Positions 59,623 through 63,487 of a DNA stretch of 64,000 bases are shown here, one piece after another. Position 1 is the first letter of the stretch. Each line of letters starts with the position of its first letter. The notes beneath the pieces are model-generated. The model ran no database searches, had not been told where the DNA came from, and worked only from the letters and a program-made list of their open reading frames with translations. The translations under genes were made by a program, and so were the position numbers. Source of the stretch: Bacteroidales bacterium. GTDB taxonomy: Bacteria > Bacteroidota > Bacteroidia > Bacteroidales > UBA12077. Where the stretch lies: NCBI GenBank assembly GCA_018334675.1, contig JAGXLL010000009.1:1-64000 (forward strand), written 5' to 3'.

Positions 59623-59636
59623 ATAAGGAAACAATC

Positions 59637-59713
59637 AGCGCTTAGCGCAGCGCTAAGCGCTGAAAGATGTTCGAAAACGAACAATACCCACGCTTAGCGC
59701 TGCGCTAAGCGCT
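59637..59713. repeat. Composite palindromic repeat, copy 4 (full element)
   Basis: A perfect 25-base palindrome with a central A (59637-59661), the exact inverted repeat TGTTCG-AAAA-CGAACA (59668-59683), and a second palindrome with a central T and 10-base arms (59691-59700 and 59702-59711). Same order and spacing as at 54281-54356. It lies between the convergent ends of the DUF4834 gene and the dsrE-like gene. Confidence 0.88.
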
Positions 59714-59738
59714 GGTTGTTTCCTGAATTTTTTTCCGG

Positions 59739-60242
59739 TCAGGTAAAGATGATTTGCGCCCCTTCACCGGCGGCTTTTTCATAGAATTCACCTACCGTAA
59801 GGATGCCGCTCACATGTTCGCTCAGATCTTCCTTTCCCACCTTGAACATATCCACGGCCAGCTGGCAGGCATAGACCTCACCGCCACCAGCTGTGATCAT
59901 GTCCATAAACTCATCTACCGGCGGCACGTCCAGCTCATCCATCTGCTTTTTCATCATGTTGGAAACCATCTTCTGGATGCCGGGGATCATACCCAGCAGC
60001 TTAGGCATGCGGGCCCCGTTGGGCATTCTCAGGGCCGGGTTTCCCACGGTGGCTGTTTGGAGTTTGTTCATGCGTTTTTTGATCACCGCATCCAGCCCGA
60101 AGAAGGTGAAAAAGACTTTGGCTTCCTTGCCATCCATCACAGCGCCGTTGGCCAGAACCAGTGCGGCATAGACGTCTTCCAGGTTGCCTTTGGAACAAAT
60201 GACGGATACTTTGTTTATCTTACCTTTTTCCTGATTTTCCAT
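59739..60242 (-). CDS. DsrE/DsrF-like (DrsE_2) sulfur-relay protein
   Basis: A 167-residue cytoplasmic protein with the DsrE fold start VSVICSKGNLEDVYAALVLA and a conserved Cys region VYACQLAVDMF (about 123-133). The long insert (MPKLLGMIPGIQKMV) is typical of the DrsE_2/DsrE2 group. These proteins carry persulfide sulfur between partners. It is the last gene of the sqr-DUF1641-tusE-dsrE run (18-base gap to tusE) and ends at a palindromic repeat. Confidence 0.85.
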   Translation of the reverse strand: MENQEKGKINKVSVICSKGNLEDVYAALVLANGAVMDGKEAKVFFTFFGLDAVIKKRMNKLQTATVGNPALRMPNGARMPKLLGMIPGIQKMVSNMMKKQMDELDVPPVDEFMDMITAGGGEVYACQLAVDMFKVGKEDLSEHVSGILTVGEFYEKAAGEGAQIIFT

Positions 60243-60260
60243 GATAATAGGTTTTATAGG

Positions 60261-60572
60261 TTAAACACAGCTGGTGGGTTTGGGAATACCGGCTATTTTG
60301 GAGGCCTTTTTCAGGGGTCCGCCGGGGAAGAGCTTGTAAAAGCCCTTGATGTCGGTAATGCCTGATTTACCCACCTTGCGGATGGTCAGGTTGGCTCCTT
60401 CCTGGTACTTTTCACGCAGAAAATTGAGCACCTGGAAGTGCTCATCGCCCAGCTCAATGCCTTCTTCCCGGGCAATCTCCCTGGCGATGTCCTCATTCCA
60501 TTGATTGAAGTCTTGCAGGTAACCTTCGTCGGTTACTTCTAAATTTTTTCCTGCTAATGTTTTCTGTGCCAT
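60261..60572 (-). CDS. TusE/DsrC-family sulfur-carrier protein
   Basis: A 103-residue protein. The N-terminal LEVTDEGYLQDFNQWNEDIA and the C-terminal end (GIPKPTSCV) match TusE/DsrC. The conserved penultimate Cys is present, but the upstream Cys used in a disulfide in DsrC (11 residues before) is a Ser (KKASKIAG). So only one sulfur-carrying Cys remains, as in TusE-like carriers. A frame extends to 60704 but the ATG at 60572 gives the family's length. Its gene lies between DUF1641 and dsrE. Confidence 0.9.
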   Translation of the reverse strand: MAQKTLAGKNLEVTDEGYLQDFNQWNEDIAREIAREEGIELGDEHFQVLNFLREKYQEGANLTIRKVGKSGITDIKGFYKLFPGGPLKKASKIAGIPKPTSCV

Positions 60573-60583
60573 AATATTGATTT

Positions 60584-61282
60584 TTATTGTTTGGTTGATT
60601 GATGTGATTTTGTTTGTTGATTTGAGAGTTTCTTCATAAAAGTGATCATGAAACCCATGCCTTTTTTCATTTCGGGAGAGCGCATCTCCTTGAATGTTTT
60701 CCACAGGGAATATTCCTTTATTTCGCTGAAGTCTGTTTCCTGATAGGTATTGACCGCATTGTTCAGGGCCCTGAGCATGTCGGGCTGGGTGATGTTGTGA
60801 ATGGTTTCCAGGATGACAGGGATATTTTCTGCCAGTTCCCGGAGCTCTTCAGGTGAATAGTTGCGCACGATGGTATCCATGATGCGGGTGGATTCCCTGA
60901 GAAAATCGAAATAGCCTTTCTGTTCCATCTCATGGAATTTGTGGATCACATCCACCCCTACTTCGTTCACAATAGGGCCGGCATCTTTGGTCAGATCCAC
61001 CATACTTTCAAAGGTCTCGAGCATCTGGTTGAAGTTGTCCACATTGCGAAGCATACGCAGGGACAGATTTTTCAGGTCATCAACATTGACCTCAATGTCC
61101 CTTTTGTCCAGTTCGTCCACCGTGCTTTGAAAGGCATCTTTTCCTATGATGGACAGATCATCGGCCAGATCGTTGAGACTTTCGCGCTGCAGGCGTTGTT
61201 CATTGACATGGTTCAGCACCTGGTCCAGCTTCTGGTTGATCTCGTTGATCTGCTTTTGTAAATCTTGATTGTTTTCAGCCAT
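60584..61282 (-). CDS. DUF1641 protein
   Basis: A 232-residue, largely helical protein with a coiled-coil start (LQKQINEINQKLDQVLNHVN). The central part (GPIVNEVGVDVIHKFHEMEQ, then RIMDTIVRNYSPEELRELAE) matches DUF1641. Such proteins are found beside formate dehydrogenases and SQR-like flavoproteins. No Cys or obvious catalytic residue is seen. It lies 11 bases after the SQR-like gene. A scaffolding or quinone-site role is only a suggestion. Confidence 0.85.
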   Translation of the reverse strand: MAENNQDLQKQINEINQKLDQVLNHVNEQRLQRESLNDLADDLSIIGKDAFQSTVDELDKRDIEVNVDDLKNLSLRMLRNVDNFNQMLETFESMVDLTKDAGPIVNEVGVDVIHKFHEMEQKGYFDFLRESTRIMDTIVRNYSPEELRELAENIPVILETIHNITQPDMLRALNNAVNTYQETDFSEIKEYSLWKTFKEMRSPEMKKGMGFMITFMKKLSNQQTKSHQSTKQ

Positions 61283-61293
61283 AGTGTATGCTT

Positions 61294-62526
61294 TTAGGAT
61301 TTTTTGCCCGCCATGGTCATTTGCGACTCGATGGGCATCTCTTTGCCTTTAAGCAGAATGTGCCAGTATATCCAGCGGAAAAGTACTTTTCCGTAATGGT
61401 TCATCTTGGTATTCTGTAACAGTCCGAAGGGTCCAACACCGGGTAAGGGGAAAGTGCCGGGCAGTGGTTCGGTGTCGTAGTTGAAGTCGATGATCGAGCC
61501 ATTGCCATATCCGGTTTCAATGTAGCAGTTGGAGTGTCCGTCGAATTGTGCCTTCAGGGGCCGGTTCTCGATGGCGCTGAGCAGGTTCTCATAAACCACC
61601 TCCGAGGCAAAATGGACGACCGATCCGGCTTTGGAAGTTGGGATGTCGGAAGCATCGCCCAGCACGAAAATGTTCTCGTGGTTTTTGGACTGCAGGGTGT
61701 ATTTGTCGGTGGGGATGAAATTCAGGTCATCTCCCATATCGCTGCGTTCTACCAAGGAGCTGCCGGTGTTCACCGGAACGATGGTCAGCACGTCAAAGGG
61801 GATCTCCTGTTCGTCGTAGGAGCGGATCACCTTCTTCTCATTGTCCACGCTCTCCAGGTAGAAATCGGGTACCACCCGGATGTTCTTCTCTTCAAGCAGG
61901 TCTCCCAACATCCTGGAGGCCTTGGGTTTGGTGAAGGCCCCGGACAGGGGGGTGACGAAGGTGATGTCCACCTTCTCGCGGATACCTGCCTCAGTGAAAT
62001 AGGCATCGGCCAGAAAGGAGAACTCCAGGGGAGCTACCGGGCATTTGAAGGGCAGCTCGGCGATGTTCACCACCAGCCTGCCACCTTCCCAGTCACGGAA
62101 AAATTCCCTCAGAGCAACAGCTCCGTCCAGGGTATAGAAATCGAATATCTCCTTACGCCACAGGCTACCATCCTTCAGTCCGGGTGTCTCCTCCGGACTG
62201 ATGTCGGTTCCCGTGGCTACGATCAGGTAATCATATTGCAGCACCTGACCGCCTTCCAGGAGGACCTGGGTGTTGTTGGGCTCGATCTTGTCGATGCCAT
62301 TATATATGACCTGTACCCCCGGTGGAAGAAAGTCGGATTTGGGTTTGATCACATCGTTTTTGTTGTAGATGCCAAATGGGATGAACAGAAAACCCGGCTG
62401 ATAGTAATGGGTTTTGTCTTTGTCCACAATGGTGATCTCCCATTGATCTCTTGAGAGGACCTTACGGAGTTTGTTGGCCATGATGGTTCCACCCGTGCCG
62501 GCTCCTAAAATGACAATCTTTTTCAT
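61294..62526 (-). CDS. Sulfide:quinone oxidoreductase-like flavoprotein
   Basis: A 410-residue FAD enzyme. FAD-binding GAGTGGTIMANKLR at the N-terminus and the second Rossmann region YLIVATGTDISPEETPG are present, with FVLGDASDIPTSKAGSV near the end. Two of the three Cys of SQRs can be placed: one in ELPFKCPVAPLE and one in GHSNCYIETGYG. The first classical Cys is not seen. A C-terminal amphipathic end (KVLFRWIYWHILLKG) fits membrane attachment. It would oxidise sulfide to persulfide or polysulfide and pass electrons to quinone. It heads an operon with DUF1641, TusE-like and DsrE-like genes and is divergent from a Crp/Fnr gene. Confidence 0.87.
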   Translation of the reverse strand: MKKIVILGAGTGGTIMANKLRKVLSRDQWEITIVDKDKTHYYQPGFLFIPFGIYNKNDVIKPKSDFLPPGVQVIYNGIDKIEPNNTQVLLEGGQVLQYDYLIVATGTDISPEETPGLKDGSLWRKEIFDFYTLDGAVALREFFRDWEGGRLVVNIAELPFKCPVAPLEFSFLADAYFTEAGIREKVDITFVTPLSGAFTKPKASRMLGDLLEEKNIRVVPDFYLESVDNEKKVIRSYDEQEIPFDVLTIVPVNTGSSLVERSDMGDDLNFIPTDKYTLQSKNHENIFVLGDASDIPTSKAGSVVHFASEVVYENLLSAIENRPLKAQFDGHSNCYIETGYGNGSIIDFNYDTEPLPGTFPLPGVGPFGLLQNTKMNHYGKVLFRWIYWHILLKGKEMPIESQMTMAGKKS

Positions 62527-62737: not shown

Positions 62738-62766
62738 GTATTTATACGACTAATAAATATCATAAC

Positions 62767-62778
62767 TGATATATATCA
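62767..62778. promoter_or_regulatory. Palindrome 3 in the sqr-crp intergenic region
   Basis: TGATATATATCA, a perfect 12-base palindrome whose half-site TGAT resembles Fnr half-sites (TTGAT). It lies 14 bases before the Crp/Fnr start. Confidence 0.45.
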
Positions 62779-62791
62779 TAGGGAGCTGAAG

Positions 62792-63487
62792 ATGAGTAAA
62801 ATTTTGGATACCTCCAATTGCAAGCACTGCGCCTATCGATCCTGGGCTTTCAACAAACTGGATCAACAAGCCCTGGAGAAGATTGATTCCCATAAAACCG
62901 AGGTTTTCTATGAGAAAGGTGAAGTGATCTGCACCGAGGGCGAGGAGGTCAACAGTTTTCTATACTTGAGAAAAGGGCTTGTGAAACTGCTGACCACCGA
63001 GAAAAATGAAAAGGAACACATCATCAGCATTGGCAAGCCGCTGGATTTCATTGGGTTGCTCAGTATATTCTCCAACAGCAATCACATTTATACCATTACT
63101 GCTATAGAGGACTCGGTGGTGTGTTTTGTGGACCTGGAGGTCATTAAGGGTTTGATGCGACAAAACGGCAAATTTGCCCTGGATTTCCTGGAGAAATCGA
63201 GCCGGGTGGCAGACGATGTGATCAATACCCGCATCAGCATAAACACCAAGCAGTTGCGGGGCCGCATTGCTTATATTCTGCTGTTCTTTGCCAATCATAT
63301 ATATAACACAAGTGAATATGAATTGCCCATTAGCAGGAAAGAACTGGCTCAGTTGATCGATATGAGCACTGAGAATGTGATCCGGATCCTATCGGAATTT
63401 CGGAAGGACAAACTCATTGAGATAGAAGGCAAGCTCATCCGTATACTGGACGGGCAAAGGCTTCAGCGGATATATGATCTGGGATAG
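62792..63487 (+). CDS. Crp/Fnr-family transcriptional regulator
   Basis: A 231-residue regulator. A cyclic-nucleotide-like sensor domain (about 20-140, YEKGEVICTEGEEVNSFLYL) and a winged helix-turn-helix (LPISRKELAQLIDMSTENVI) are clear. The N-terminus has CKHC (C10, C13), as in Fnr-type Fe-S proteins, and two later Cys (VICTEG near 47 and VVCFVD near 110) could complete a cluster; the spacing is not that of E. coli FNR. It is divergent from the SQR operon with a 265-base gap that contains several palindromes, so it probably controls that operon in response to redox state, NO or sulfur species. A SD-like GGGAG precedes the ATG. Confidence 0.88.
   Translation: MSKILDTSNCKHCAYRSWAFNKLDQQALEKIDSHKTEVFYEKGEVICTEGEEVNSFLYLRKGLVKLLTTEKNEKEHIISIGKPLDFIGLLSIFSNSNHIYTITAIEDSVVCFVDLEVIKGLMRQNGKFALDFLEKSSRVADDVINTRISINTKQLRGRIAYILLFFANHIYNTSEYELPISRKELAQLIDMSTENVIRILSEFRKDKLIEIEGKLIRILDGQRLQRIYDLG

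Follow-up and report, generated by a model that had tools for sequence, protein, structure and literature searches.

Analysis of a 64,000-nucleotide stretch of a Bacteroidales genome (hereafter the window) indicates that four closely spaced genes, with a divergent regulator gene, probably encode a conserved cytoplasmic sulfide-oxidation module. In this module a sulfide:quinone oxidoreductase (SQR) would be coupled to the membrane or quinone by a DUF1641 protein and would feed a relay of DsrE- and TusE-like sulfur carriers under Crp/Fnr control, a reading to which we assign a probability of about 0.58. We regard the operon and its conservation as secure, and a sulfide-to-persulfide relay is plausible as the most likely reading of its gene content. 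All four genes lie on the minus strand in the order SQR, DUF1641, TusE/DsrC-like and DsrE, with gaps of 11, 11 and 18 bases in the open reading frame listing, as an earlier note on this DNA had described them (one direction, gaps of 11-18 bases); from this spacing they are probably co-transcribed. The families named in that note (SQR, DUF1641, TusE/DsrC-like and DsrE-like) agree with the NCBIfam and Pfam matches. The features are as follows, with gene coordinates that include the stop codons.

61294-62526, minus strand: SQR, type III sulfide:quinone oxidoreductase, 410 amino acids (NF049943, 648 bits; human SQOR match).
60584-61282, minus strand: DUF1641 protein, probable membrane/quinone-coupling subunit of SQR, 232 amino acids (Pfam DUF1641; ForE1 profile match).
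60261-60572, minus strand: TusE/DsrC-like protein, predicted single-cysteine sulfur carrier, 103 amino acids (TIGR03342; Pfam DsrC; cysteine pattern in relatives).
59739-60242, minus strand: DsrE-family (DrsE_2) predicted sulfurtransferase, 167 amino acids (Pfam DrsE_2; PDB relatives 2qs7 and 3pnx; alignment of 37).
62792-63487, plus strand: divergent Crp/Fnr-type regulator with a conserved CxxC and a third cysteine (cNMP_binding, HTH_Crp_2; conserved position).
62767-62778, no strand: FNR-like palindrome TGATATATATCA (TGATN4ATCA), probable operator, present between Crp and SQR at 36 of 45 loci.
62751-62762, no strand: second copy of the palindrome, TAATAAATATCA, with one mismatch, 16 bases from the first (read from the sequence).
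59626-59724, no strand: inverted pair of REP-like palindromes, terminator-like, downstream of dsrE.

The operon-like unit also includes the divergent Crp/Fnr-type gene and the conserved palindrome. The TusE-like gene starts at an ATG that matches its relatives, and a longer GTG frame reaching 60704 exists too; the starts of all four proteins, as read from the sequence, leave no room for a signal peptide. The transcript could end at the inverted palindrome pair downstream of dsrE. A perfect 21-base palindrome, CGCTTAGCGCWGCGCTAAGCG, is present in 66 copies in the genome and occurs in the window at positions 102, 146, 571, 54283, 54334, 59639 and 59691. The copies often lie behind genes and form inverted pairs with a spacing of about 30-50 bases. 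One congener has a single copy, the others searched have none, and the element looks like a recent species-specific expansion of the REP/REPIN type.

To describe the distribution of the module we examined 109 loci, which combine a phylum-wide set (296 genomes) with named genomes. The module was present at 103 of them, four were cut by contig ends and two, which have a distant SQR (47% identity) and probably belong to Chlorobiaceae, were without partners. The order SQR-(DUF1641)-TusE-DsrE was thus kept at every one of the 103 loci in this SQR clade whose flanking DNA was long enough to show it; the locus sets have some members in common, and genomes that are related do not count as independent. 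The earlier note had suggested looking at the gene order in other Bacteroidota, and this conservation across at least four phyla bears it out and excludes a chance adjacency of the four genes. The named hosts belong to Bacteroidota, Ignavibacteriota, Calditrichota and Neomarinimicrobiota and include one KSB1 bacterium, while Planctomycetota is represented by a single record, a metagenome bin that is possibly misassigned. Cultured carriers include Draconibacterium sediminis and Lutimonas halocynthiae. The partner genes were absent from all six outgroup loci with such a distant SQR, for which several kilobases were read on each side. Among 98 genomes of the same order, SQR and strong matches to the TusE-like protein coincide exactly, in 36 genomes, and the other 62 are without the module. 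Wherever the contig is long enough, these 36 genomes repeat the whole arrangement, with the Crp gene divergent from SQR-DUF1641-TusE-DsrE, except for one locus where DUF1641 is missing. At 22 loci SQR, TusE and DsrE are retained and DUF1641 is not, and it is therefore not essential to the module.

The SQR scores 648 bits against NCBIfam NF049943 (type III SQR, selenoprotein subtype; cut-off 525), and its top PDB match by sequence is human SQOR (165 bits). The predicted model (pTM 0.87) has the fold of a flavoprotein with two dinucleotide-binding domains when compared with the PDB, and its best match is again human SQOR (TM 0.87). Cys162 and Cys334 align with the redox cysteine pair of human SQOR, and neither varies among 17 diverse relatives. 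The description of the first gene product as an SQR-like flavoprotein is thus upheld in its fold and in both catalytic cysteines, and oxidation of sulfide by this protein would be the expected activity. We rejected a selenoprotein SQR in spite of the score above the NF049943 cut-off, since neither this gene nor the listed relatives contain an in-frame stop and cysteine occupies both positions. For the type III SQR of cable bacteria a periplasm-facing orientation has been proposed (PMC13293266), and such a face would cut the SQR off from cytoplasmic carriers.

The DUF1641 protein is the sole match to Pfam DUF1641 in the genome (24.8 bits, cut-off 21). A profile of 59 of its relatives matched ForE1 of Bacillus subtilis over about 120 residues (E=4.6e-6), and the C-terminal half of the profile did so at E=7.2e-7; this half also matched YjlC and a chain named 'NDH-2 membrane coupling protein' at E values of 0.05-0.1, which are not significant alone. 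Comparison of the predicted model (pTM 0.42) with solved structures by Foldseek gave no significant match and did not recover ForE1. YjlC is the partner of the NDH-2 YjlD according to a PDB entry title, the complex being taken from PDB entry and chain names, and NDH-2 and SQR have a common flavoprotein fold in the PDB matches. In B. subtilis, ForC depends on ForE to bind menaquinone and to reduce quinone (PMC8808070). In both the ForCE formate dehydrogenase and YjlC-YjlD of this species, a peripheral enzyme that reduces quinone has a DUF1641-type protein at its side, as here (PMC8808070), whereas the enzyme in our operon is SQR, the similarity lies mainly in the C-terminal half and the complex is a predicted one.

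The earlier note had proposed that DUF1641 docks SQR to the carriers, a scaffold role that fits the position of its gene between those of SQR and the carriers. We consider this role very unlikely, given the 22 loci in which SQR, TusE and DsrE occur without DUF1641, the three haloarchaeal plasmids in which DUF1641 directly follows SQR with no TusE or DsrE between them, and the quinone-coupling function of its relatives (PMC8808070). On the SQR tree, moreover, the presence of DUF1641 needs only about four changes. Taken with the ForE1 match, these data argue for a partner of SQR and not a carrier dock, and the protein is best read, from its sequence relationships, as the membrane/quinone-coupling subunit of SQR.

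SQR relatives with 31-36% identity occur in Haloarcula pHH400, Halobaculum, Natronorubrum and Ca. Chlorohelix. DUF1641 adjoins SQR in the first three, as in our operon, and is not listed in Chlorohelix; TusA adjoins SQR in Haloarcula, Halobaculum and Chlorohelix, where our module has the TusE-DsrE pair. DsrE lies nearby in the Haloarcula and Chlorohelix clusters, and no TusE-type protein is listed in the haloarchaeal or Chlorohelix clusters. In two of the three haloarchaeal plasmids TusA stands in front of the SQR-DUF1641 pair.

Both carrier proteins could be assigned to their families, and each has a single catalytic cysteine. The TusE-like protein scores 88.7 bits against TIGR03342 (TusE/DsrC/DsvC; cut-off 53.5) and 105 bits against Pfam DsrC; its Cys102 is the penultimate residue and is invariant in relatives, and the second C-terminal-arm cysteine of true DsrC is replaced by serine or alanine throughout the module clade. 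The DsrE protein scores 100 bits against Pfam DrsE_2 and 96.5 bits against the DsrE2 sulfur carrier model NF047629, below its cut-off of 210, and is related to PDB entries 2qs7 and 3pnx. Its Cys126 is invariant in an alignment of 37 sequences, while a second cysteine, Cys16, is common within the order only. One cysteine per carrier fits transpersulfidation. In Allochromatium vinosum the transfer of sulfur from DsrEFH to DsrC is established (PMC7596348), and by analogy this suggests that sulfur would pass through DsrE before TusE. The two systems are alike in bringing DsrE-family and DsrC-family sulfur carriers together (PMC7596348); our operon differs in the absence of DsrAB, DsrF and DsrH, in a DsrC-like protein without the second cysteine and in SQR as the would-be source of sulfur.

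An assignment to DsrC, the co-substrate of the Dsr pathway, was rejected because the second cysteine is missing and the draft genome gave no PF01077 match that could stand for DsrAB. A second type of DsrC, found at five loci of the order, has both C-terminal cysteines and adjoins a cysteine-desulfurase-like gene, in most cases together with a 210-residue membrane-like protein and an HdrD/DsrK-like CCG protein; sulfite reductase was looked for in these genomes and none was found.

TusE of E. coli serves MnmA, and the genome encodes MnmA, so that the TusE-like protein might deliver sulfur to this enzyme for tRNA thiolation with SQR replacing a desulfurase as the source. We give this reading scarcely any weight, since the match to the TusE equivalog reaches only 76.6 bits against a cut-off of 191, and PF02635 (TusC/TusD-type) has no match in the genome, results that also led us to reject an assignment as TusE proper. 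Furthermore, MnmA is to our knowledge general in bacteria, whereas 62 of the 98 relatives lack the module.

None of the operon genes encodes an acceptor enzyme for the sulfur. The earlier note had reported no sulfite reductase, TusA, TusBCD or MnmA. Searches for protein families in the draft assembly (listed as 94.8% complete) extended the first and third of these absences to the genome, with no match to PF01077 (sulfite-reductase family) and none to PF02635 (canonical DsrE/F and TusC/TusD types) at E <= 0.001; the other two hold for the window only, and two TusA genes and one MnmA gene are present in the genome. The Dsr pathway and a TusBCD relay were accordingly discarded as routes for the sulfur. 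A cluster elsewhere in the same genome (contig C99, about 110-124 kb) encodes TusA, a YedE-type transporter, rhodaneses, a porin-like protein, DsrE, a further TusA, FlpD, two HdrA-like proteins and an Fe-S membrane protein (Qmo-like). This cluster has a divergent Crp/Fnr gene of its own and is similar to the YTD clusters that have been considered in connection with sulfur disproportionation (PMC12998232). The relay might feed this cluster, so that sulfur would be oxidised or disproportionated through an Hdr/Qmo-type complex, a destination that we find improbable. Three congeners carry the SQR module and have no TusA match, and therefore the cluster is not a general acceptor. Over the 98 genomes TusA is only weakly associated with the module (20 of 36 genomes with it, 22 of 62 without it; p=0.06), and with the three congeners this also removed TusA as an obligate acceptor. 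Cytochrome bd was likewise rejected as a linked terminal oxidase: it occurs in 31 of the 36 genomes with the module and in 42 of the 62 without it, a weak association (p=0.06) for which genomes outside the family gave p=0.74.

Fe-S FNR proteins have four ligands. In the divergent regulator, which has cNMP_binding and HTH_Crp_2 domains, a CxxC pair and a third cysteine are conserved (33-34 of 34 copies), a pattern that is close to, yet short of, this full set. The motif TGATN4ATCA was detected in 36 of the 45 sequences between Crp and SQR, whereas dinucleotide shuffles gave 0.57 on average and 4 at most. Relatives commonly have tandem copies with a spacing of 16-17 bases, and the palindrome is a probable operator. 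In some lineages, exemplified by three loci, a MerR-family gene, in the same direction as SQR and in front of it, replaces the divergent Crp/Fnr gene, and at one of these loci its product is cysteine-rich.

The conserved cysteines of the regulator also bear on a reading as sulfide detoxification, in which SQR would release persulfide or polysulfide to small thiols and TusE and DsrE would mainly buffer or sense reactive sulfur. Human SQOR, the nearest PDB match of our SQR, donates sulfur to small molecules, and the operon is without an acceptor enzyme. There is also a precedent in the cst operon of Staphylococcus aureus (CstR; CstA, CstB and SQR), in which SQR and sulfurtransferases are under a persulfide sensor (PMC5480029). 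Our operon is similar in combining SQR, sulfurtransferases and a cysteine-bearing regulator, but it has TusE and DsrE in place of a persulfide dioxygenase (CstB) or a CstA homolog, and its regulator is of the Crp/Fnr type and not a CstR-type repressor (PMC5480029). We regard detoxification as rather unlikely, in view of the occurrence of both TusE and DsrE at every testable locus in several phyla and of their single catalytic cysteines, which are typical of carriers.

Under the preferred reading of a cytoplasmic relay, SQR would oxidise sulfide at the inner membrane face and pass the electrons to menaquinone, with DUF1641 as a subunit of the ForE/YjlC type that would join it to the membrane or to quinone. 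Sulfane sulfur remaining on an SQR cysteine would be transferred by transpersulfidation to Cys126 of DsrE and from there to Cys102 of the TusE-like protein, and the pair would convey it to a final acceptor encoded outside the operon. The Crp/Fnr-type regulator, with its conserved cysteines, may control the unit through the FNR-like palindrome. In a broader form, which we propose tentatively and at somewhat less than even odds, SQR persulfide would enter cytoplasmic DsrE and TusE directly by a Dsr-independent route, DUF1641 would be a general coupler common to SQR, NDH-2 and formate dehydrogenase, and the carriers would deliver the sulfur to a further acceptor.

No description of SQR, DUF1641, TusE and DsrE as a unit was found in the open-access literature searched, and the module brings known parts together in a new way. 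Proteins of the DsrC/TusE family occur in organisms without sulfite reductase. The TusE-like protein is tied to SQR at every testable locus of the clade, in at least four phyla, and this makes the role of such family members directly testable. For DUF1641 the module adds another likely partner enzyme, which accords with a general function as the link between peripheral dehydrogenases and quinone. As a whole, the data suggest that a route for handling sulfide is widespread among marine and sediment Bacteroidota.
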